A model generated the notes under the pieces. The model was not told the DNA's origin. It searched no databases and saw only the letters and a list, made by a program, of their open reading frames with translations. From assembly GCA_950295325.1 (NCBI GenBank), contig OX485809.1:994001-1058000 (forward strand): a stretch of 64,000 nt of DNA, read 5' to 3'. Position 1 is the first letter of the stretch. Every line of letters starts with the position of its first letter. A program made the position numbers and the translations under genes. Source of the DNA: Polytrichum commune (lineage: Eukaryota > Streptophyta > Polytrichopsida > Polytrichales > Polytrichaceae). Shown one piece after another: positions 26,381 to 42,775 of this stretch.

Positions 26381-27074
26381 GAGCATCTCCACCCGTTGGC
26401 GGCAACGGGCACGCCAACGGGGGCTTGGCTGGTGCCAAATTAGGTGGCCGGTCGCGGGACCCAGCATCCCCCCCACCGCAGACACTTCGTCGAATGGCTC
26501 CCGGCTCCCGGAAAACAGCTGTCTCCGCTCCTGGAATCAGACAAGTTAGATAAGTTAGATGCAATTATTTGGGATGGGTGGTATTGATCGGGATGCCTGA
26601 TGGATGAGTGGCGACAATGGTGAGATTCTTACTTCACGCTCTATTGCTTACATGTGTGGCGTTATAGATTCTGGGCACTCGATCGGTTGGCCTGACTCCG
26701 GAGACATTTCTTTTCTGGCAGTTGGATCGGCTCGAGAATTGCCTCATGTGAGTTAGTGGTTGCGTATAATCACGATGAACATCGATGTCATCCTAGGCAA
26801 GCACATCGAGAAGCAAGTAGCTGCTCTCTCATCACCCACGAAGAGAGGAACATTGCAATTCGCACACGCATTTCGCCATCGTAGGTTCAGATTACAGCCA
26901 TCAAGATTTAGGCTTCGGAATCAATACAGGATCGGAGAACGGATTGCTAGAAATCCGGGTGAAAAGCAAGGATTTGGAAATATTAGGGTTTCAGACGAGT
27001 TGGGACGCACTGGGTTTTTGCCCAGTTTGTGAATTCGAAGAGGAGGTTGCTGTGATAAAATTCTCTCTCCCTCC

Positions 27075-27082
27075 CTGGGCGA
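27075..27082. repeat. Target-site duplication CTGGGCGA, left copy
   Basis: These eight bases lie directly before the left inverted end GAGGGA. The same eight bases directly follow the right end at 38252-38259. Confidence 0.8.
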
Positions 27083-27225
27083 GAGGGAAGCTAAGACATG
27101 AGCGATGAGCGGTGAGCAATGAGCAGTGAGCGGTAACACGTGAGCAATGAGCAATAACACGTGATCGATGGTGCGAAATATAGTAACTGGGCACGGTTTT
27201 AGGGTACATATTCTAATATTGGCAT
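27083..27225. repeat. Left terminal inverted repeat with heptamer array
   Basis: About eight copies of TGAGCRR, interrupted by TAACACG, occupy 27095-27170. After them come GGGTAC and TATTGGCATTTTTTTCT, which also occur inverted in the right end. The array is a likely transposase or accessory-protein binding region. Confidence 0.75.
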
Positions 27226-27413
27226 TTTTTTCTTTGCAATTTAAGAATTATAAAGTACTCACATTTTGATTGAACAAGAGTGAAGGGAGCACATTATCAT
27301 AGATATTTTTAAAAACCATCAGTCTTTTGTTGATTTTTATTATAAAAATCCACACTAATACATGTCACTTACCAAAATTCTCAAACATGCGGTTGAATAC
27401 AACACTTGGAATA

Positions 27414-30400
27414 TTACTCACATTCTACAACACCTGCAAGTTCAAGGAGTTGCATAACCTCATTGTAGGAGTATGTTGGAGCGTGAATGAATTTGTCACT
27501 ACTGTAATCCACCTTACACAAAAATCTAAACACATAGTAAAGATGTTTGCAATACACCCATTTCCCTTTCTTTCCCAAAGATTGAGATGACATTTTTGTG
27601 AAGTCAGGGCATGTACAATGTGGCATGTCAACAATTGTGACACAATATTTGATGTTATCCTTGGAGACGATGTTGAGTAGGACTCCAAATCTTGGATATG
27701 CAATGGCAGTTACTCCAACCACATAGTAACCGTCCATGAGTCCAGCGCTCTCCCATTTGTTTTTGTGATCTGCCGTCAGTGCTCCTAGATTGCGGCGCAC
27801 CGTCTTTCCAAACCTGGAAGTTGGATGGGCATCTGGTTTTTGTGGTACACGAAAATCCGTCCGAGGAATCGGGAGCGTCGCAATTGTGGAAAGCCTACGG
27901 CGAGGAGAGAGAACCTCCCTTTGTTGTAATTGGAATCCAGCATCTTCGAGCGCCAATACCTCCTGCCTTGAGAGATTGGTACCTATCTTTACAGGCCATG
28001 TGCTGGGTACAATAGGCCAGTCTAACACGTATTTCTTCTTGCTACCACTTACACAACGTTTGATGTCGTCAGGGCAAAACCAAAACTCGTACTCCACATT
28101 GTTGGTGGAGCGGTATTCTTTCTTCAATCCCTTGTATGTAGGAGCAGGGGTGCCATGTTTGTAAGTTCCAACTTTGGCATTGCACAAAGACCCTGTATTG
28201 GCTTGCATCGCCCAACATCTTTTGGCAGAGTTGGATGGCAATCTTGCAATATGCCAATGAGAAGAAGGGCAACCAGTCTCTAACACCGATGTGGTATGTG
28301 CCACACCATACTCTGCAGAATTCAAAGATTCCTCTATGCATGCCCTTTTAACCCTAGTGTTGGGACGAGGAATCGAGTAGTTCACTTTGTCGGGTCGATG
28401 TGAGTCGCAATCTGCACCTGGCGGCAGATCAAGTTTTCGTTTGGTAGATCCAAACAGCTCAGACCCCTCCAAAGCACAATCCCTTGTATTGAGATCTTCA
28501 GCCCCCGGATAGGATTTCATGGCATCTGCTAGTAGCTTTGGATCTCCACACCGGGCAGCAGCCTTCAACTTCAAGGATGCAGAATCAGGGCCTTTACCAG
28601 TAAAACCTCCTCTCAACCACGATCTATAATTTGCAATCTGCATGAATGCACGGATCAAATCGTCCACTGTTGCTTCATAAAGACAAGTCATCTTGTTTCC
28701 AGACTGTTGGAGCCATTTGTTGTGCATTGTCTTTGCAAGGTTACACGTCGGCATTTCTGCACGTTCATCTATATTCATATCCTGTAAACATTACACAAAT
28801 TATAGTAGATTGTATATATCATGGATATTCAAAATTAAATAATATTGGAAAAACATAGTAATAATGCACTTACAAGAATCATATGACCACCCCATTGCCT
28901 ATAACGGAAGTGCCAAAACTCCAACCACTCGGAGAGCCCGTGAATGTCTTCTTCTGTGGCAGCTCCAGATGACAACCACCATGAACGAATAACATGATAT
29001 TTGGTTTCGGCTTCGTCCATTGTTTTCGCGTCTTTGTAATCTTTGCATAGTTGTTTGTGCTGAAACTGCAAAGATGCCTTGGTATATTTTTGCGTCACCT
29101 TGTCCAAGTTTTGTGACCAATGGAAAAGACAAGTGCGCTCACGACCCACCATTGGCAGACTTGGGTCACCTCCACCATATATCTTCCTGACCGCATTCCA
29201 ATTTGCTTGAGCACTGTCCGCCATAAAACCTTTGAAATTCACGGTTAACACTCCATTCTCCGCCATAACAGTATTCAAGTTTTCCCATAAAAGAGTTTGA
29301 GTTGCACCATCTTCAGATTGCATGTCACAACACGCAATGGTCAACACCTTACAATACTTGCTATCGTACACATGACACGCAAGGGTGGTCCAGTCCTTCA
29401 GACGTTTAACGTGGTCAAACATTATCCATGAATTCTCCATATCTCCTCCCTCCTGCATACGCATAACAAGATCCACACCACTCCCCGGAAGATCTATTGA
29501 CATTTTGAAGACAAATACTTTGTCTTTGGACTGTCCGGGGAACCTACTAGCATGAACGTACTTAAAGCTCGAATGGTCTTTGAGCGCCATGATACTATCC
29601 ATCGTACCCATTCCACTACGAACAAATCGCTTTGAGCCGGATACGAAATTCCGACAATTTGGAGAGGCAAGAATACTAAATTTATCCATGACGACCTCCA
29701 AAGACGAACCTGTCAAGTGATGTCTTTCACTGTTTGATGGAGATTTTAGGAGGTAGTCTACCAAAAATTGTTTGCTCGCTGCCATTACTATAGCGGAGTT
29801 TTTGGCAGTGGGTGTTTTTGTGACCTCATTGGCAACACATTGGTATGCAATGTCCAAAGATTCACGGCATGTACCATTGGACACAGGGTGGTCATGCACG
29901 CCTAGATGAATACAAGCCCTGGCCATTTCAGAAGATGTGGAGTGCACATATATTATGCGAGCATGGCATAAAGCTATGCATATAGGTGTGGAATGACAAA
30001 CCTTACATTCCAATTTGGACCTCTCAGGGGCAATAATACCCATAGAGAATGGGGTAGGAGTTGATCCGGCCCATTCGGTGTTGTTGCGCTCGCCTGCATT
30101 GCGATGCATATAATCACAAAAATCATTAGAGCATTGGAGATGACCTGCACAAGTAGAACGTCTGAAGGTTAATCCAAAATCATTTTGGATATTTGTGGTT
30201 TTGGTGGTGCACCAAGGATGTCCATCGCACATCTTATCCATGTCATCAATCGAACGACCATAGGCGCTTGGAACTCCAAATGGCACAGGGGGCAATACAA
30301 ACAAAATGTCACCGTCAAAAGAGGAGGGCAAATACTTAACATCTCGCATCTCTATGCTATCAAAATCAATGGACGCAAGATCTGACTTGGATCTTTTCCT

Positions 30401-31009
30401 AGACTTTGTTTGTTTCAATGCGTCGACAATATTCATACCCACTGATGAAGAAAAATTGTGTAGCGGGGGACGTTGTGATACTGAACCATGGTGTGCCACC
30501 TTCACATACAGAGGACTGTAAGGAGTTTTGGGAAGATCCATAGGGGGTTTTGAAGGGGTGGAATCTTTACTTCTAAATGGAAATGGTGATGTATCAGAAA
30601 AGTCAACAACAGCACAAATGTCATCTTCAGAATCTGACAACACTATTATACTATCATCAGTAGGTTCCAATTTAACAGTGACGATACTTGGAACTTGAAC
30701 AGTTGATGTACTAGATTCATTTGTCAAAATGACAGTAGAAGCTTGCATCTGAGAATCAAAGAGTCCCATAACTCTATATGAACCAGGTCCTAAACTCCAC
30801 ATAGAACCACCCTCACTTCTATTCTTTTGCATCAAGATTGTTCTAGACACCTCTCCACCTACAGAGTATATCTCTTGCTCGACGTACATGGTTCCTACTT
30901 GGAGGTTGAATCTCAAACCAAGCAAATCTTCTAAAACAACTACACAACCATCACTTTCAAGAGGCAAAATGAAGGGTATAAAGGATCCATGAGCACAGAT
31001 GGTAGCCAT
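27414..31009 (-). CDS. Intact two-exon transposase with SWIM zinc finger
   Basis: Exon 1 is 31009-28874 and ends at a GTAAGT donor. Exon 2 is 28781-27414 after ...TTTACAG. The junction is phase 0 and there are no internal stops, giving about 1,167 residues. Seen in order: SUMO-interaction-like motif IIVLSDSEDD (residues 121-130); basic KSRKRSK (about 202-208); a Cys/His DNA-binding region with TCAGHLQCSNDFCDY (286-300), CKVC (335-338) and HLGVHDHP (369-376), of WRKY-GCM1 or FAR1 style. The catalytic core region has FMADSAQANWNAVR (second Asp, about 598) and CLFHWSQNL (about 627-635). A SWIM finger CTCPDF...CKH lies near the C-terminus. It would cut and join the element's ends. It starts 430 bases from the divergent cargo gene. 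Confidence 0.85.
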
Positions 31010-31437
31010 GAAGAATGTGTGGATGCAATGTACATCATACTATGGAAAACATGACCTATTTGTATTGTGTCTTGGCAATCTTAATCCATGGACTTGAAAA
31101 ATATACTATATGAATGTCTATTGAAAGACATGGTGCACATGGGCTGGTAGGTGTAAAGAAGGTAATGCCAGTTGTTGATTATATTAGGTAGACAATGACC
31201 AATGTAAGGAAGATATTTTAATAGCGTATCTTTAGCTTTCAAATAAAATTCAATATCTTAATGTTTGGGTTCTAAAGATGGTGGTGGTGGGCCTTTAATA
31301 ATTCCTAAATCCCAAAGAAGAAGAAGACATAATGAGTGATGATCTGTTTCAAACTTCTTACAACTTCAAAGTGAGGTAGAGCTTTTAGGTTATGCAAAAA
31401 GCGAATGTAGAGAATTGATAGATTTTTAAGGTTGCAA
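31010..31437. promoter_or_regulatory. Shared promoter region between divergent genes
   Basis: A 428-bp AT-rich interval separates the start codons of the transposase (minus) and the ParB-methyltransferase-like gene (plus). No single TATA box stands out. The layout implies the two genes are expressed from one bidirectional region. Confidence 0.5.
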
Positions 31438-34400
31438 ATGCAAGAACGGGATTATGCGACACCAACAAAGCGGAAGAGAAAGAGGGGTGGTTTTAAGTAC
31501 TCCACCAAAAAAGCATTGGCGAGATCAAGAATGGGGAAAAGATTGAGTAGGGTCGATGAGGGAGAGGCATTTTTGACATCGAGAACTATATTGTTTAAGC
31601 CCGGAGACGAAGATACTTACACTGATGGGCTCGGCTCAACACCTTACATTGGAGGCGAACCCAATACAGAAAGAATTACGGACACCCAGGAATCTTCTGG
31701 AGCCGAGGATGAAGGGGAGACTCAATATACAAGAGAAGTAAGACTCAATATTCATTTCTCACTTTGTAAATTCAATTGCAAGTTTTATACACATGTTGAA
31801 AGTACAATTGATATGAAGGTGGATACATATATTTTTTGTGGGCAAATATATGTTAAAATTTTGAAATTTGAGATTTTTGGGTAATACCTAAGTGAAGTCG
31901 TTCTTGAAATGGATGTCATTGAGGTGAAGGTTATGTAGTTGACCATATACATTGTTACATTTACGGTTGAGAACTCAAATAAGTCATAGTTGACGTGTGT
32001 ATCCTTGAGGGTGAAGGTAAACATCGAGGACGAGGAAGAAGAAGACAACTTGAATGAAGATGAAGAAGGAGAGGATGGTATAAAAGATGAACTAAGAGGA
32101 GGCTTGATAGACGAAGCAAGAGGAAGCATGGAAATCGATGGAGGAGGCGACTTCACCGCCGCCCAAAAATCTCAGGCAAGCATTTTGAAAGTAAACTTGA
32201 ATGCTTGAAATGTTTCTTAAAGATTGAGGACACGGATTTCATCACTTCCTCCTTACCCTTGGTTTCATAAGGTGCTGAGAATGAGACATTAACCCACAAA
32301 ATAAAGAAATAATGAAGCAAGAAAACCCTAAAATGAGTCTCGGTTCCGAGATTAGGTTTTTTGAAATTTCTGGGTTTTCTTCTTGCCTCTTCAATTCTTG
32401 CTTTTGTGTTTCTTTTCGCACTTCTTTGTGTTCATTGCTTATGTCTTGCTTTGATATACATGCTTAGAAGTTATTATGTAGTTTGCTTGATGGGTTTGTA
32501 GTGTATTCAAAAATTTCAATGAAGAAGCTTCATTGTTGAAATTGAAGCTTGAAATGGTTCTATAAGGTTAAGAACACGGATTTGATCACCTCCATCCCAC
32601 CCTAGGTTTCATAAGGTTCTGAAAATTAGGCATTTGTGACCACAAAAGCAAGAATTGAAGAGGCAAGAAGAAAACCCTAAAATCTCAAAAAAATGAGTCT
32701 CGGTTCCAAGACTAGGTTTTTTGAAATTTCTGGGTTTTCTTCTTGCTCTTCAATTCTTGCTTTTGTCTTTCTTTTTGCACTTGTTTGGGTTCATTGCTTG
32801 TGTCTTGCCTTGATAGGTATGCTTACAAGTTATTGATAAGTATGCTTGATGGGTTAGTATGTGGTTTCAAGAATTTCAATGAAGAAGCTTCAAGCTTGAT
32901 ATTCAAGCTTGAAATGAATCTATAAGTTTGAGGTCACGGATTTCATGACCTCCCGCTCACCCTTGGTTTGGTAAGGTACTGAAAATGGGGACATTGATGT
33001 GTACAACAAGAAGAAATGAAGAAGTTAGAAAAAACTTCAAAATTCCGAAAAAATGAGTTTCGGTTCCAAGACTAGGTTTTTTGAAATTTCTGGGTTTTCT
33101 TCTTGCTCTTCAATTTTTGCTTTTGTCTTTCTTTTTGCACTTATTTGGGTTCATTGCTTGTGTCTTGCCTTGATAGGTATGCTTACAAGTTATTGATAAG
33201 TATGCTTGATGGGTTAGTATGTGGTTTCAAGAATTTCAATGAAGAAGCTTCAAGCTTGATATTCAAGCTTGAAATGAATCTATAAGTTTGAGGTCACGGA
33301 TTTCATGACCTCCCGCTCACCCTTGGTTTGGTAAGGTACTGAAAATGGGGACATTGATGTGTACAAAAAGAAGAAATGAAGAAGTTAGAAAAAACTTCAA
33401 AATTCCGAAAAAATGAGTTTCGGTTCCAAGACTAGGTTTTTTGAAATTTCTGGGTTTTCTTCGTGCTCTTCAATTCTTGCTTTTGTCTTTCTTTTTGCAC
33501 TTGTTTAAGTTCATTGCTTGTGTCTTGCTTTAATGTGTATATTTGGAGGTTGTTAGATAGTTTGTTTGTTGTTATTGCGGTGTATCCTAGAATTTCAATG
33601 AAGAATCTTCAATGTTGAAATTGTTGCTTTAAATGGTTCTAAGAGGTTGAGGGCTTAGTTTTTTTTCTTTGAATGGTTAATTTTTATGTAATTTGATTGA
33701 ATGTTATTTGTGGTTTCATAGTTATGTGTTAATTTCATTTCATTTGTTATTCGAATTTCAGGATGGTGGAGATGACGATGGCGGTCCCCCACTGCCCAAT
33801 GATTTGTTAAATGTGGAAGAGACTATATTTCATATGCGAGATTTACAAAATACAAACTTCAATTCTTTGATTGGAGGACTTCGTATGAAGCCGTTCTCAA
33901 AGTCAAGAGTTTCAATCCCTCTTTGTCGGTTAATATCGTTGCCTATTGTGAGGCCAATATTGGAAATCGATGTCCAGCTTTTGGAGAATGAATTTGTGAA
34001 TGGTTATAGGGAGGGTGATAGGGTACTGTATGTATCTCCATATGACAAAGATGGAAATACTATGGATATTCGGGATGAAGACACTTGGAGAGAACATTGG
34101 CAATCTTTCAATAAATCATTTGAGGAAATCCTTAAGAATGATAAGGATTATGAAAGGTTTTGTGGTAAAATGTTCTTTGTTTGGGAGGGTAACCATCGGG
34201 TGACAGCTTGGCGCCGCCATATCGATAAGGTCCATGGAGAAGATAAAGAGTGGTATTACTCTGTTGATTGTATAGTACTTGAATCAACCGGTTCGGTGGC
34301 TCTTCTTCTAAATGCTATGCATGATGTGAACATGTATGTTTTATGTTCCGATGTTTATTTATTTATTTATTGTTTATAATTATAAAATTATAAAATTTAT

Positions 34401-37400
34401 TGATTTTTTTTTGTCATCTTTCTTAGGTCTACGGAATCAGATCATGTCAAGACAAATTTGGTTCACAAATTCCATCGTGTCCAAAGTTTTGGAATCATGA
34501 AGTTGGAGGAATTTAAAGACCTTTTTATCCCTGATCAATATTCCAAGTGTTTGAAGAAAGGTGGAAAGGGAACTTGGTATACCCTCACTTTGGAAGTCTT
34601 TACTCAATTTCTTTACAAGGTGGGTATTCTAATTCATGCTAAGCTCTGTTATTGAATATATTTTTGCTAAAGGATCTTAAACTAATTCTTAGTTTTTGGT
34701 TGTGTAGCGTAAAATAACATCTATGACCGAAGAGGCATCTCGTAAATACAATGAGAAAACTCCACTTCAATCAAGGACATCAAAAGGTATTTGGGATGTC
34801 ATGCAGAATGCAACAAAGAAAGCAGTATCATTAATTCGTGGAAAAGAATTCGAAAAACTTCTCGCTGTCGCAAATCCAGCCAATGGCTTCGATTTCTTGG
34901 AGGAGGTAAGTCATTATGTTTTTTATGTAGCATTCATTTCGGTATCCTATATGAGAGATTTTCATTATTTTCACCTTCCATTTTGCAGATCAATAAGCAT
35001 TTTGGAGATCGCTCTGAGCCTACCATGACCCTAGAGAAACTGCAAATGATTGCAACTGCTCCAGTGAATTCGGTGTTCAAAATCAAATTGTTAAGGTGGT
35101 GAAATTCTAGCGACATGTCCCGTGAATCTCTACGCTTTCCATTGGGAGATATCAAAGAAAAAAAACTTGAAAAATGGTTGATCAAAGCGTCATTTTGGGC
35201 CCAGGTTATTCCTTATTCTTAAATATCTAAGTGTTTTCATTTCAATTTTTGAATGTTTTATGATTTATTCAATGGTCGTGATGCATATGTGTCATTTTGC
35301 AGTTGGAAGATGGTTTTGTGAAACAATTTGAGGATATGGAAAAAGAAATGAATGTGAAGATTATTTGGAATGCACATATACTTATGCCTTCTGAGTACAT
35401 TGAAAAGTGGCGTATTATGCTTTGGACAAAAGCATTCCGACATTTTTTTGGTGGTATGAGTGTATTTACAAAATCTACTCTACTCGGTAAAATTTTTGGA
35501 GGAGGCATTGCTATCAAACGAGTGGTATTCAGGTAATTTATCTTTTCTTTCTCTCATAGCTTCAATTCGTTCATTGCATACTTGAAGTTTGCCTTGACGT
35601 AATCGATTCACTAACTTCAATCAAATGGTTATTTTATCTCAAAGGTACATAAAAAACGAGCTATTGGCTTCAAACGCCATCTCCCTTGGCTCCATTCCGA
35701 GTTGTTTCTCTTCATGGGCTGACAAATCTAGTGACCTTTGCATTTTTACGGCAACCCAGATAAGAGTTTGGGATTATGCCACTTTGCAGTCTTGTCCATG
35801 ATTTATTGAGTGTCCTCTTACGTTTTGTCCAAGTGAGGAGGAGGAGCTCAGGAAACAGTCATGTCCAATAGACTTGCCTCCTGATGATATTGACATGATG
35901 AACAACGAGGATGTGTGTGTGGTGAAAGTAATCAAACCGGAGGGAAAAGCTAAACGTAAGCGTGGCTCAAAGGTAGATGAGGTTAATCCAACACCTTCAT
36001 CTCAAACCGGTGTTATGGCACACAATCCTAGTCCTTCAACACCTACACCTAGCACTCAAGATAATGATGGACCTAAGTTTTCTCCCATTTCAAGATCACT
36101 ACGATTTCAACATGTGTCAAAAACCATTGTCAGTGGTGCTTCACCTTCTGGGGCAATTTGTTCAGTGATGTTGGAGAAGATTTCAATTCAAACATTGATG
36201 GAGAATGGTGGTCATGAGCATCCGTTAATGTTGAAAACATTTGAATTTGTGACTAAGGTCAGTATACTCAACATTGAACTTATTTTTATTTTATGATATA
36301 TATATGGTGTTGATGTTGCAACATGTTTTGGACTTGAGTGTAATATTGTTTTTTGGTTTTTTTTTTGTAGGTGGGTTCCGGACGCAATAGGAGGGTTTCT
36401 TCAGAGGATTGTAGTTTTGGAGGTCTTGACCTTATTATTGCAGATTTGCCAGAAGGTTTGCCTGTACCTAACGTTTCATCTCCTCCACATATAATCCCAG
36501 CTTGGAACGACCACAAGAGAAAGAACATTGAGGCTCTATTTGAATTTGCATGTGCATATCTCACCGATGATGGCCCCTTGCTTTTGTTTGTTCCCGAGAA
36601 GAAAGATGTCAGAGAGGATGTAGGGACATTCGCAGCCTCCTATGATTTTGTATTGCGAAAAGATTGGTGGGGCTTCAACGAGTTGCCGTTGTGTTATCCA
36701 CTTGACACATCATTGACGGTATACATTAAACTCTATTATTTATTACTTTGAATTCTACTTTTTCATTGTATTGCAATGTTCTCATCAATTTTGTAATTGA
36801 TTCCCCCGCTGAAGGTTTTCTCGTGGTTTATAGACTCGTCGTTTCCGCATCATGTTGTTTCTTCGTTCTACTCCCAAGTCGGAGTTTGTTTTTCAAAAAA
36901 AGAACGCAAATACTGAGGTGGATGTGGAGGCCTTGGATGTGTTCTTCAATCTCACATCGGCAAGCACTCAACTCATGAACGGAAAAGTGCCATGGAGAGG
37001 TGGTAGGGAGAAAGACTCGGAATCGATGCAAATCTTAATAGAGGCTTTAACAACTCCCGCATCGGTTGTCCTCGTTGCTTATGCATCTACAGGTTGGTTT
37101 ATCTCTTACTCAAAGGACCTATTATATCATCTCCCAATATGTTTTAATGAAATCATTGTAGTGTTGTCAGTGGCTTGTGCAAATTAACTGACATTTCAAC
37201 ATTTCATTGGCAGGTGCATCTATTCATGCTTGCAGAAATAGTGGGCGCCATCTAGTGGCATATGAGGAAGATTCTGCATTGTTTGATGCCATTCTATCCC
37301 CATTAAGTGATCCACCACCAACTGCTATTGTAGGTGGATTTATGCCATATAATGCCTCCATCGTTTCCGATGAAGAGCATGTTAAGAAGGTTGCGAGAAA

Positions 37401-37687
37401 AAGTCGATTGAGTACGTAAGTTTTCAATTTCTCCATATTGTTTGTTAATTTGGCCCTCCAATGTCTGATATGTGTGCACTAGAAGTCTAACACTTATGAT
37501 GTCAATTTGCAGAAAAAAGAAAAACATGACTTCATCTCCGAATATGGGTTTGCCAATATATGCAGAAAATGTTGCATAGATCATGGCAAGATCAGTGACG
37601 CCAACTCCTCGCCGTATATCTACACGAATTGCTCGTAACCCGTATGTAGATGATGAGGCGATTCAATGCGATGATCTAAGTGATTAA
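31438..37687 (+). pseudogene. ParB-like / DNA N4/N6-methyltransferase-like fusion gene, copy 2 (transposon cargo, broken)
   Basis: Exon 1 runs from ATG 31438 to 31737 (KRKRKRGG basic motif). A second acidic exon is likely around 32015-32190. Well-supported exons then follow: 33762-34333, 34427-34619, 34708-34905, 34989-35203, 35303-35532, 35645-36257, 36371-36718, 36834-37092, 37214-37415, 37513-37687. Phases agree except for one lesion. The ParB/Srx-like domain shows VSIPLCRLISLPIVRP, FVNGYREGDRVLYV and FFVWEGNHRVTAW. The methyltransferase part shows LDLIIADLPEG in the DPPY position, LTDDGPLLLFV, then VVLVAYASTG with the intron falling inside motif I, and GRHLVAYEED. Lesions: TGA at 35100 and 35799, both where copy 1 has Trp; one base missing in the A-run 35158-35164; TAG at 37577. 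The fold is confident; catalytic ability is doubtful and the cargo role is inference. Confidence 0.75.
32200..33660. repeat. About four tandem copies of a 360-bp unit
   Basis: The units contain CTCGGTTCCAAGACTAGG, TTTGAAATTTCTGGG, TTCTTGCTCTTCAATT, ATTTCAATGAAGAAGCTTCA and CACGGATTT. The 32743 and 33103 copies are nearly identical and exactly 360 bp apart; the first and last are more diverged. The array lies between the acidic 5' exons and the ParB-like exon of cargo copy 2, so it is intronic or has replaced part of the gene. Confidence 0.85.
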
Positions 37688-38124
37688 GCTAAACTAGTTT
37701 AGGGACATTTAGGTAGTTGTCAATACCATCCACTATGTGTTTGATTGGATTGGATATTATTTGGTGGATGTGTGACAAAGTTTGGATTCATCATTTGAAA
37801 TTACCACAATTAGTGGACATTGAATTGTGTGAGCAATTTCCTCTTATTCCTAAACCCTATATCCTAAAACTTAATTACCTCTATCAATCCATTTCTCAAA
37901 CTTACATGAATTTTAGAAATACAGTTTAGAGCAATACTTGGAAGGTGCTTGCATTGTTATTACAATTGGATGTTGCATCCAACAACAACATTAAAAATAT
38001 TTTTCAAACCCTCATGCCAAGCTTGCAGTTGTTGAATTTAAAAGTAGAGTTAGGTATTCATGAGGATAATTATATTTTTTGACTATCCATTAATTTTATT
38101 ATAGAAAAAAATATTATTATTTAT

Positions 38125-38251
38125 GCCAAAATACCACGGATATAGGGTACTAGTGCGTGTATTTCCAAAAATCTTTCCTCACCTACCGTTCACAAGTTAC
38201 TGCTCATCGCTCACCGCTCATTGCTCACCGCTCACATGATAGCACTCCCCC
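38125..38251. repeat. Right terminal inverted repeat with heptamer array
   Basis: This is the complement of the left end: ATGCCAAAATACCACGG, then AGGGTAC, then heptamers written as YYGCTCA from about 38181 to 38235, ending GATAGCACTCCCCC. It is followed directly by CTGGGCGA at 38252-38259, the right target-site copy. Confidence 0.8.
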
Positions 38252-38761
38252 CTGGGCGATATAAGTTCAGCTTGAACGCAAAACTCCACGAAATTCAACC
38301 TTGATGAAATCGAAGCATATTGCCGAAATTTCGGACTCCCACCATAGAAAGAGTTCCTGCGAAGCTTTGAAACTAAACGCCAGCCGGCACAGGCCTTGAA
38401 ATCAAAGTAGGCAAAATCAACAAGCTAATTCCCGGAAGCAAATTCAACAAGCAAATTAACTGAAGCAAATTCAACAAGCAAATTCAGAATGGAGCTAGAA
38501 CTCAATTCATCAATGATATTGCCCATGGAGGCTTAATCCAAAGTGTACATTGTCTTCACTGGAGACTAAATTTTCTTGGTATCCATCTAGATCAATTGGC
38601 TGGGAGTTGCTACGCTCTGACTGCTCACCCAATACCCTAAACTGAGTTGGTTGTCCGATATCTACGTGTTCCAAACTAAACCAATTCGCAGGGGAAAAGT
38701 GCAGAGAACCTAAACCCTGTGAATTCTCACTGCAACCATTCTAAGTGTTCCGATGCTCCTG

Positions 38762-41700: not shown

Positions 41701-42775
41701 CTAGTAAAAAACTAAGGCCTAACCTCCGGAGGTACTACGACGCATATTTAATCTCCCTTAAAAATCTAACTACTCACGTTATACACCTATCATCCGGGTT
41801 CGGCTTGGGCGCCTGCAAATGCAGGCCACCTTCACCGAAGGGCTTGTGTGATACTTTTAGGCTCCCTCGAAAGGGGGTGGCCCAAAAGTACCACACCATG
41901 CTTTTCGTGGCCTCGGCGTGTGCCAACAAAAGACCCTCACGGATCTTCCCTTGTCGTTGATCTTCCTTTGCACCGTTGACACCTCCAGGGCGCCCCTTGA
42001 ATATCCACGATGCTTCTGCACGCACACTCCCTCCCTTCGCTGATCCGCCCCCCTCATCCGAAGCTGTTGCTACGCCTTGCTCCATCTCGGACAAATCGAA
42101 GCAGTCACTGTCCTCCTCTGAGCAAGGTGTTTTCCTCTTCGGCGTCACAACCTTCACCTGTGTCCACCCCTCCGACCACTTCGGGTGGTCTTGCAACAAT
42201 ACCCAACAGTGTTCGAATGCGAAATCCGATCCCTTTTCGTTCTTCTGCTTGTACAATTCATGCGCCCTCCTCAAGGTATCTGAAGCGCTCGTCCCACTTC
42301 GATTCAACCGCATCACCTGTGAGTAGACACCAATGAACTTGGAGACGTCATGTTTGATGATGCCCCATTTGGTCTCCAATGAGCGCTGCGCCCGGGGTCC
42401 CTGTGGTTGATTCTCTTGGTAGTGAGTGGTGATCCGCTCCCAAAAAACACCTGCTCTTTGTTGATTACCAACAATGCGGTCTTGTGTCACATGCAAGACA
42501 CTTCTACAAAGCTGCTCCTCCTCATCCTTGCAGAAATTCTTGCCTTTGACACCAGGTCGCACAGGGCCTCCTTCCTCCGCAACCCTGGGCGCAGGCTTCT
42601 TCCTCCCTACCACCATTGGCGCAAATTTCGAAGACCAGATATATTCTGGAATCTTCTTGTTTTCCGTGAAGAATTGGTCTCGGCAAGGTAGCGGTAGCGG
42701 GAGAGTATTTGGCGTGAACGGGGCTCCCTTGGCCGTTGCCGCGTCGCCGGTGGGCCCTAAACCCGGCCAATCCAT
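38762..42775 (-). pseudogene. PIF/Harbinger ORF1 (Myb/SANT-like, NAM-associated type), split by an insertion
   Basis: The first part (42775-41896) contains a trihelix/Myb-like segment, with KDEEEQLCRSVL, an FWERI motif and SLETKWGIIKHDV. Then come FAFEHCWVLLQDHPKW and GRPGGVNGAK, the classic order for ORF1 of plant Harbinger elements. The second part (39051-38762) has RKAALLED, LLMLMSMPDADEDAKEYLRL and a Glu/Arg-rich tail. The two are separated by the LTR-type insertion. Taking that and one target-site copy away leaves 1,170 bases, exactly 390 codons including the stop. One in-frame TAG remains at 39011-39013, where CAG is the simple ancestor. ORF1 proteins bind DNA and help the transposase; this one is dead. 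Confidence 0.75.
39057..41895. mobile_element. LTR-type insertion (possibly solo LTR), 2.84 kb
   Basis: It begins TGTGAACCC and ends AGTACCACA, flanked by CCATG on both sides (39052-39056, 41896-41900), the 5-bp duplication usual for LTR elements. It interrupts Harbinger ORF1. No gag, pol or paired LTR is seen inside, so a solo LTR or non-coding derivative is likely. Inside are about three degenerate ~180-bp tandem units (about 40050-40560, with AGCTTTCC and TTTGAATTAGATATGAATTG) and a perfect 10-bp hairpin at 40967-40991. Confidence 0.7.

Follow-up and report, generated by a model that had tools for sequence, protein, structure and literature searches.

The 64,000-nucleotide stretch of Polytrichum commune DNA analysed here (the window) contains a real, complete plant DNA transposon, confirmed as a single element that carries a transposase gene and a methyltransferase-like cargo gene. 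Family-specific palindromes, often arrayed, lie in the non-coding DNA beside the cargo exons, either in introns or upstream of them. Whether the accessory protein binds these palindromes of its own element as a dimer, in a form of self-recognition that counters silencing as VANC does for VANDAL, is a question on which we consider the chances evenly balanced.

A preliminary description of the sequence had placed an exact 8-bp direct repeat against both ends; the repeat is indeed present, but it is 9 bp long (CCTGGGCGA), and the element therefore spans positions 27083–38250. The left end reads GAGGGAAGC followed by seven RTGAGCR heptamers at 27098–27153, and the right end has five inverted heptamers at 38201–38235, then ...ATGATAGCACTCCCC. 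Local alignment of the inverted ends scored 29, compared with a mean of 14.6 and a maximum of 23 in 300 shuffles. No RNA families were found in the window at gathering scores. The borders are as follows.

27074–27082, no strand: left target-site duplication CCTGGGCGA
27083–38250, no strand: complete transposon (ends and 9-bp duplication; left border common to all ten other copies; empty-site paralogues)
27083–27153, plus strand: left terminal sequence with seven RTGAGCR heptamers
38201–38250, minus strand: right terminal sequence with five inverted heptamers
38251–38259, no strand: right target-site duplication CCTGGGCGA

Searches with both ends, in which the best 40 of 670 left-end and the best 40 of 863 right-end candidates were scored, yielded ten other copies with left and right ends paired in one orientation, 9–23 kb apart; most of these best 40 places had no partner in the other list. 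Copies with differing borders had been named as evidence against a single element, but the first 13 bases of the left end (GAGGGAAGCTAAG) are identical in 10/10 and the right end (CACTCCCC) recurs in 8/10, with C1_59170 and C3_16479 off by one base. Both ends were read in 12 further copies, in 11 of which the element is flanked by a duplication of its own, 8–11 bp long; an empty site is seen in four paralogues of the window target. The proposal that inverted ends and two divergent genes form one complete element is thus borne out by ends, duplication, copies and empty sites. Cargo-exon candidates numbered over a thousand in the genome at first look, and 150 were scored for each exon; of 150 scored transposase places, 21 lie within 25 kb of a methyltransferase place, where 2.7 would be expected, and 19 of these pairs are divergent.

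The transposase gene is apparently intact, as first described, with 1167 codons in two exons and neither stop nor indel.

28874–31009, minus strand: transposase exon 1, 712 codons, open
27414–28781, minus strand: transposase exon 2, 455 codons plus stop, open, with a CxC...CxH finger at its end

The SWIM finger claimed for it is present as the CxC...CxH motif, although the Pfam SWIM match (E 0.91) lies below the cut-off. Profile comparison with MULE and KDZ, recommended at the outset, identified neither family by Pfam: the MULE transposase domain PF10551 had no match in the transposase up to E 10 and a genome search with it listed 142 places, none of them these elements, so a plain MULE was rejected by profile; KDZ/Zisupton was likewise rejected, since Pfam PF18758 had no match in the protein and a genome search, run without a positive control, found none. 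The element is best explained as a land-plant DNA transposon that moves by cut and paste and is MULE-like in duplication length, mostly 9–10 bp (9 bp in the window, 8–11 bp in 11 of the 12 further copies). MULEs make duplications of 8–11 bp, according to the available part of PMC6446971, and have a SWIM-type finger that the CxC...CxH motif of the window element resembles, but the window transposase lacks their Pfam match. The transposase probably acts on the heptamer-bearing ends. Single-sequence structure prediction of a transposase core gave a mean pLDDT of 40.8.

The cargo gene lies on the plus strand, divergent from the transposase, and comprises 1154 codons in 12 exons with consistent splice sites.

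31438–31737, plus strand: cargo exon 1
32017–32175, plus strand: cargo exon 2, acidic, GC donor
32330–33528, no strand: tandem array of 360-bp units in cargo intron 2
32338–32351, no strand: core palindrome TCTCGGTTCCGAGA in the first unit of the array
33762–34333, plus strand: cargo exon 3, ParB-like region
34185–34199, plus strand: EGNHR motif
34427–34619, plus strand: cargo exon 4
34708–34905, plus strand: cargo exon 5
34989–35204, plus strand: cargo exon 6, in-frame stop at codon 512
35303–35532, plus strand: cargo exon 7
35645–36257, plus strand: cargo exon 8, in-frame stop at codon 675
36371–36718, plus strand: cargo exon 9, methyltransferase motif IV region
36443–36454, plus strand: DLPE in place of catalytic DPPY
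36834–37092, plus strand: cargo exon 10, methyltransferase motif I region
37214–37415, plus strand: cargo exon 11
37513–37687, plus strand: cargo exon 12, in-frame stop at codon 1119

With its three in-frame stops, which the preliminary description had missed, the window copy of the cargo is a pseudogene, and the cargo is broken in all ten examined copies of the window subfamily (the window included); the element could therefore use the cargo protein only in trans. Loss of an exon from the window was considered and rejected, since the extra 276–335 bases found in seven of nine other copies are intronic. Elsewhere in the superfamily the cargo is shown to be constrained between distant members, as judged from substitution ratios: exon 9 has dN/dS of 0.11–0.16 in three pairs (dS 0.6–1.6), and values of 0–0.59 were obtained in seven young pairs. 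In the W–C pair, dS is 0.4–0.8 in the transposase versus 2.9 in the ParB-like exon, so the modules may have been exchanged; faster evolution of the cargo was rejected as the only reading because dS differs as well, and its greater divergence is in part simply older.

The preliminary description had taken the cargo for a ParB-plus-methyltransferase-like gene, of which the second half is backed by profiles and the first only by a short [ED]GNHR motif. At its C-terminus the protein has a DNA methyltransferase domain of the beta class. Pfam N6_N4_Mtase matches 8/8 aligned members within a limit of E 10, the best at 2.9e-9 and the window member at 0.026, and among solved structures DpnA was matched at 2.4e-5 and CcrM at 0.002. 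In the ParB-like exon, GNHR is invariant in 5/5 members, preceded by E or D; Pfam, NCBIfam, PHROGs and solved structures gave no convincing ParB support, the ParB-like PHROG phrog_1033 having a match (E 0.42) in a single member out of five, and an assignment to ParB by profile was therefore rejected. When the region was compared by hhalign, in two runs, with small sets of bacterial ParB/RepB proteins, no convincing homology was detected, a phage tblastn and a viral contig scan returned nothing, and single-sequence structure prediction of the exon returned a mean pLDDT of 38.7.

Active beta-class DNA methyltransferases have the motif [DNS]PP[YFW], and the catalytic DPPY residues are needed for activity. 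If the cargo were a functional N6-adenine or N4-cytosine methyltransferase marking its own element, as proposed for algal relatives, the conserved motif I region would fit, and the available part of PMC12477816 predicts N4-methylcytosine/N6-methyladenine activity for an Ectocarpus protein and suggests self-binding and modification. We consider this unlikely, however, because the catalytic position reads D[LI]PE in 8/8 aligned members, because the 20 fetched loci have D[LI]PE in 15, a change or two from it in five and DPPY in none, and because element F has QFPD at this stretch. The altered catalytic motif is possibly dead, and the alteration speaks against simple methylation by the cargo.

Among the palindromes, the inner motif TCGGNNCCGA is common to 8/14 families or loci, TCTCGGNNCCGAGA has 4,639 genome sites versus 11 for the reversed pattern, and a second palindrome variant has 2,491 versus 7. 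Nine test loci upstream of ParB-like exons contain 35 palindromes, compared with 1.2 in shuffles and 5.6 expected at the window background rate (13 palindromes in 50.4 kb, 21 window tiles). With recurrence counted by one rule for test loci and controls, a central 16 bp recurs twice or more in 4/9 test loci and 0/21 tiles (Fisher p 0.005), exact strings recur in 3/9 (p 0.02 versus tiles), and repeated palindromes occur in 0/24 other control loci; one test locus has no palindrome and four have single palindromes only, all different. For the element in the window the case is weak: it has seven palindromes, two of them one repeated string, where about 3.4 are expected for its length from its surroundings (16 in 52.6 kb), and one exact palindrome core. 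Copy C2_12291 has three versus 1.4 in shuffles, and the core is missing from the old copy C6_15736.

These arrays might simply be palindromic minisatellites grown in introns by replication slippage without a protein partner. The number of 360-bp units varies from 2.3 to 6.3 across the window and eight close copies, the core is altered in the window array after the first unit and, across the window family, in the majority of units, and TCGGNNCCGA is absent from 6/14 families or loci, all of which fit such growth. Nevertheless, the same inner core recurs across families that have different outer arms and whose ParB-like exons are only 36–59% identical. Slippage offers no explanation for a dyad core common to them, and we judge this account improbable.

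The palindromes could also be bound by the transposase or by a host protein instead. If they were transposase binding or enhancer sites, or targets for insertion and nesting, the cargo would have a different role; element F, whose palindromes are different, has some inside its transposase intron, and 2/13 insertions with both flanks read (C6_27508 and F) sit within palindrome arrays of other elements (binomial p ~0.003 with a generous bound on array share, a count noticed post hoc rather than planned). We judge this as improbable as slippage, because the arrays are mostly found within introns of the cargo gene or upstream of its exons rather than at the ends, and because the ends bear heptamers of their own, common to W and F despite their different palindromes.

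We propose instead that the cargo is a VANC-like or ParB–parS-like self-recognition factor, with the palindromes as its candidate sites. The accessory protein would consist of a ParB-like N-terminal region joined to the beta-class methyltransferase domain, and its dimer would most likely bind palindromes that lie within introns, or in upstream DNA, of the same element; this recognition may counter host silencing. The earlier idea that the cargo acts on its own element's DNA thus gains indirect support from palindromes in introns and upstream of cargo exons, but not by way of the ends and hardly by simple methylation. A broader and more tentative possibility, to which we give less credence than to the binding model, is a ParB–parS-like superfamily in which a fusion of ParB-like and non-methylating methyltransferase regions binds core-sharing family palindromes amplified within the binder gene, marks and protects copies from silencing, and changes specificity through the outer arms. 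The arrayed palindromes resemble binding sites and suggest, in a form open to testing, how such elements tell their own DNA from other DNA: a land-plant genome provides thousands of palindromes of the type found beside the cargo gene as candidate sites, the altered motif together with the palindromes predicts binding without methylation, and the natural series of families lets protein and site be compared.

The palindromes of these elements are unlike parS. As in bacterial ParB–parS, palindromic sites lie here next to a gene that has an [ED]GNHR motif resembling that of ParB, whereas profile–profile comparison of the cargo with the small bacterial sets gave no detectable homology. A ParB–methyltransferase cargo had been thought new for a plant element; algal cases are already in print, and what the literature searched did not contain are the land-plant host, the altered motif and the palindromes. 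The available part of PMC12477816 describes ParB–methyltransferase accessory genes in algal transposons (Ectocarpus Sola1-1_Ec32, with green and red algal cases cited) and suggests that the protein binds and modifies its own transposon, naming no target there; the word "palindrome" is absent from that paper. Sola1-1_Ec32 encodes a ParB-like and N4/N6 methyltransferase-like protein of 1104 aa (1154 codons here) and, like the window element, is a large DNA transposon with the accessory gene opposite in strand to the transposase. The likeness is one of described features, and the present elements differ in land-plant host, 9–10-bp duplications and palindromes; their own catalytic motif is altered. 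Fungal transposons (KDZ and others) that carry TET/JBP DNA-modification genes, as the accessible text of PMC12730594 reports, similarly combine a DNA-modification-type cargo with a DNA transposon, but the enzyme class differs and KDZ Pfam has no match here. The VANC domains DUF1985 and DUF287 were not found in the cargo (Pfam scan, no match up to E 10). In Arabidopsis VANDAL elements, which also make 9-bp duplications (PMC6446971, in part), the targets of VANC form tandem repeats that occur in VANC introns too, and conservation is lower in VANC than in its transposase (PMC5735166, as far as its available text goes); an accessory gene with tandem repeats in its introns beside a better-conserved transposase is likewise found here, the candidate targets in this case being long palindromes.

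The window (C7:994001-1058000 of the 407.8-Mb assembly, of which contigs C1-C7 together make up about 406 Mb) contains one complete transposon, recognized by its ends and flanking direct repeat:

27083 to 38250, complete transposon, 11,168 bp

The element begins with GAGGGAAGC and ends in ATAGCACTCCCC, and the inverted ends with matching subterminal arrays proposed in the preliminary description are borne out by RTGAGCR heptamers lying in opposite orientation at the two ends (seven left, five right). The direct repeat abutting both ends is likewise present, but it is 9 bp long (CCTGGGCGA) rather than the 8 bp first given. Genome searches with the element ends (41 table rows each, one place being split into two) returned at least 40 left and at least 40 right places, which are lower bounds because just the best 40 of 670 left and of 863 right candidates were scored. 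Among the places listed, ten copies besides the window have both ends in one orientation; ends were fetched for all ten, and nine carry an 8-11-bp direct repeat whose sequence differs from copy to copy, none being found at the ends of copy C6_15736. Two members of related families read at both ends, C and F, have duplications of 9 and 10 bp, respectively, giving 11 of 12 further copies in total (the right end of another relative, D, was not reached). A joined-flank search found four paralogues that are uninterrupted at the insertion point and have the target once, in slightly altered form; they match 11 bases past the target and then diverge, and are empty-site evidence, though the right-side match is short.

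The transposase gene (two exons, 1167 codons) has no stop or indel in the window, in keeping with its earlier reading as apparently intact, and is open in two of the ten copies examined, the window and C5_1237. The profile comparisons suggested for it left it without a MULE or KDZ match: a Pfam search of the protein found no transposase domain, a genome search with PF10551 listed 142 places with the window family absent among them, and a KDZ profile search of the genome, which had no positive control, found none. Transposase dN/dS is 0.09-0.20 in comparisons between families, which include exon 2 of C although its frame is broken close to the start, and 1.1-1.7 for C versus D, both young copies.

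The divergent cargo gene has its 1154 codons spread over 12 exons; the splice sites are consistent, one donor being GC. The gene carries three in-frame stops in the window and at least one in each of the ten copies examined, two of which, C1_59170 and C6_15736, show heavy damage besides (the interior of C3_16479 was not read). Across the eight copies other than those two damaged ones, 18 of 23 stop-making changes are C-to-T or G-to-A transitions, as would be expected from deamination of methylated cytosines. At one site in a cargo intron (window 36301-36303), 276-335 extra bases, perhaps a small insertion, are present in seven of the nine other copies but missing from the window and from both C6_27508 and C6_15736, the latter an old copy.

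The methyltransferase-like character of the cargo was upheld when the window member was aligned with seven of 20 fetched loci: the alignment matches two methyltransferases of solved structure, DpnA (E 2.4e-5) and CcrM (E 0.002), and all eight members match N6_N4_Mtase at an E limit of 10 (best 2.9e-9, window member 0.026). The DPPY motif has a catalytic role in methyltransferases. At its position all eight aligned members have D[LI]PE, as do 15 of the 20 fetched loci (L042, L043, L044, L047 and L049 deviate); DPPY occurs in none of the 20, and element F has QFPD. Because the catalytic motif is altered, the cargo would more likely be a reader than a writer of methylation. The ParB-like label fared less evenly: in the N-terminal region, GNHR follows E or D in all five members compared, which we take to resemble a ParB-type motif, but ParB was not supported by Pfam or NCBIfam, by solved structures or by two profile comparisons, and a ParB-like PHROG was matched by one of five members (E 0.42).

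In cargo exon 9, dN/dS is 0.11-0.16 for three distantly related pairs (dS 0.6-1.6), with two further such pairs saturated, and 0-0.59 across seven young pairs. Between the window family and C, dS is 0.4-0.8 for the transposase versus 2.9 for the ParB-like exon, and therefore the two modules may differ in history. At C2:29232892 and C4:33514485, the open frames around the methyltransferase exon are unusually long, at 370 and 264 aa, and may reflect exon fusion or retrocopies.

Transposase and cargo genes travel together. In protein searches of the genome, the best 150 places were scored for each query, out of 1,229 candidates (methyltransferase exon), 1,355 (ParB-like exon) and 1,864 (transposase core); about 106 of the methyltransferase rows are stop-free by hand count, and 148 entered the linkage counts. 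Of the 150 transposase places, 21 have a methyltransferase place no more than 25 kb away (2.7 expected), 19 of the 21 pairs being divergent, and 18 have a ParB-like partner (2.8 expected); of the 150 ParB-like places, 28 are accompanied by a methyltransferase place at a distance of up to 8 kb (1.0 expected), downstream on the same strand in 27. Most of the best 150 transposase rows have no partner among the cargo matches listed, one reason being cargo too diverged to appear there, as in element F, whose diverged cargo is absent from them. Elsewhere in the window, an ORF at 41774-42775 has a NAM-associated C-terminal domain (E 7.7e-7); partial NAC-domain matches number 28 in the genome versus none in 14 control genomes. 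Both observations point to a land-plant host, and seven chromosomes would be in keeping with a haircap moss.

Palindromes (arms of at least 8) were counted in five families, nine sequences in all, with two of the families, F44 and the neighbour of F, read in part only. Totals are 3-38 per sequence versus shuffled means of 0.5-1.6, the lowest being C2_12291 (3, versus 1.4 in shuffles) and, with 7 each, the window element and C5_1237. Outside the element, the window has 16 in 52.6 kb versus 3-6 in shuffles, so the window element exceeds its surroundings only about twofold. Family F44 has GTGTCTCGGNACCGAGACAC (16 in one copy, 13 in the other), the neighbour of F has 25 exact full-length copies of CACCCTCTCGGAACCGAGAGGGTG plus shorter variants, F60 has GGCATCTCGGATCCGAGATGCC or a close variant three times per copy, and F has different palindromes, GTTTGGGTCGNNCGACCCAAAC and TGTGCGTTAACGCACA, some inside its transposase intron. 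In the window family, cargo intron 2 has one core site in every 360-bp unit, with zero or one exact core per copy and 1-6 near-cores in nine close copies; a near-core search in C6_15736 found none. Of the 13 insertions for which both flanks were read, two sit within other elements' palindrome arrays: C6:27508165 (L007/L008), and F, nested in the array of its neighbour (L066/L067 with L167, about C4:5020800-5032670).

For a test, nine further ParB-like exons were picked solely from the ParB list, and the 2.4 kb lying upstream of each was fetched. These test loci hold 35 palindromes; shuffles give 1.2, and the density in 21 window tiles (13 in 50.4 kb) would predict 5.6. Per-locus counts exceed those of the tiles (Mann-Whitney p 0.003; nine loci, 21 tiles). 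Four of the nine loci each repeat a central 16-bp sequence, which none of the 21 tiles does (Fisher p 0.005); counted by exact string, three loci do (p 0.02). None of the 24 methyltransferase-exon and MULE control loci shows such a repeat. The 20 methyltransferase-exon loci hold 9 palindromes, where shuffles give 3.0, and no palindrome occurs in the four MULE loci. TCGGNNCCGA is found in eight of 14 families or loci (the window family, F60, F44, the neighbour of F, and test loci L169, L171, L173 and L175) and is absent from F, L168, L170, L172, L174, L176 and the window outside the element. Upstream of ParB-like exons, L175 and L176 have a second palindrome type (arms ACGGGT...ACCCGT), L168 has a single perfect 54-bp palindrome at position 340, and at L058/L059 (C1:44303900-44319800) an array of more than 6 kb of 295-bp units precedes that family's exon.

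Genome-wide, TCTCGGNNCCGAGA has 4,639 sites versus 11 for its reversal and CCTCGGNNCCGAGG has 2,491 versus 7, the reversed patterns being an imperfect control because they keep the base composition but lack CG. Among the sites listed, the first on C1, clusters lie within 1 kb of ParB-like places C1:49663 and C1:12940403 and of methyltransferase place C1:2493976; the other clusters adjoin no cargo place among the matches listed.

In the literature accessible to us, which leaves subscription sources mostly uncovered, only PMC12477816 fits a ParB cargo in transposons, and prior reports may exist. That paper describes Ectocarpus Sola1-1, with a 1104-aa ParB and methyltransferase protein opposite the transposase, cites green and red algal cases (a 2011 book chapter and a 2025 Bostrychia genome paper) and suggests self-modification for the algal proteins. 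For transposon-encoded anti-silencing factors, the partly accessible literature yielded the VANC papers and nothing on palindrome targets, and earlier reports may exist here too. The cargo protein would bind its own family's palindromes and, once bound, would shield element copies from silencing. The nearest working model for this putative binding and anti-silencing is VANC of the Arabidopsis VANDAL elements, which, according to PMC5735166, targets tandem repeats that also occur within VANC introns and is less conserved than its own transposase.
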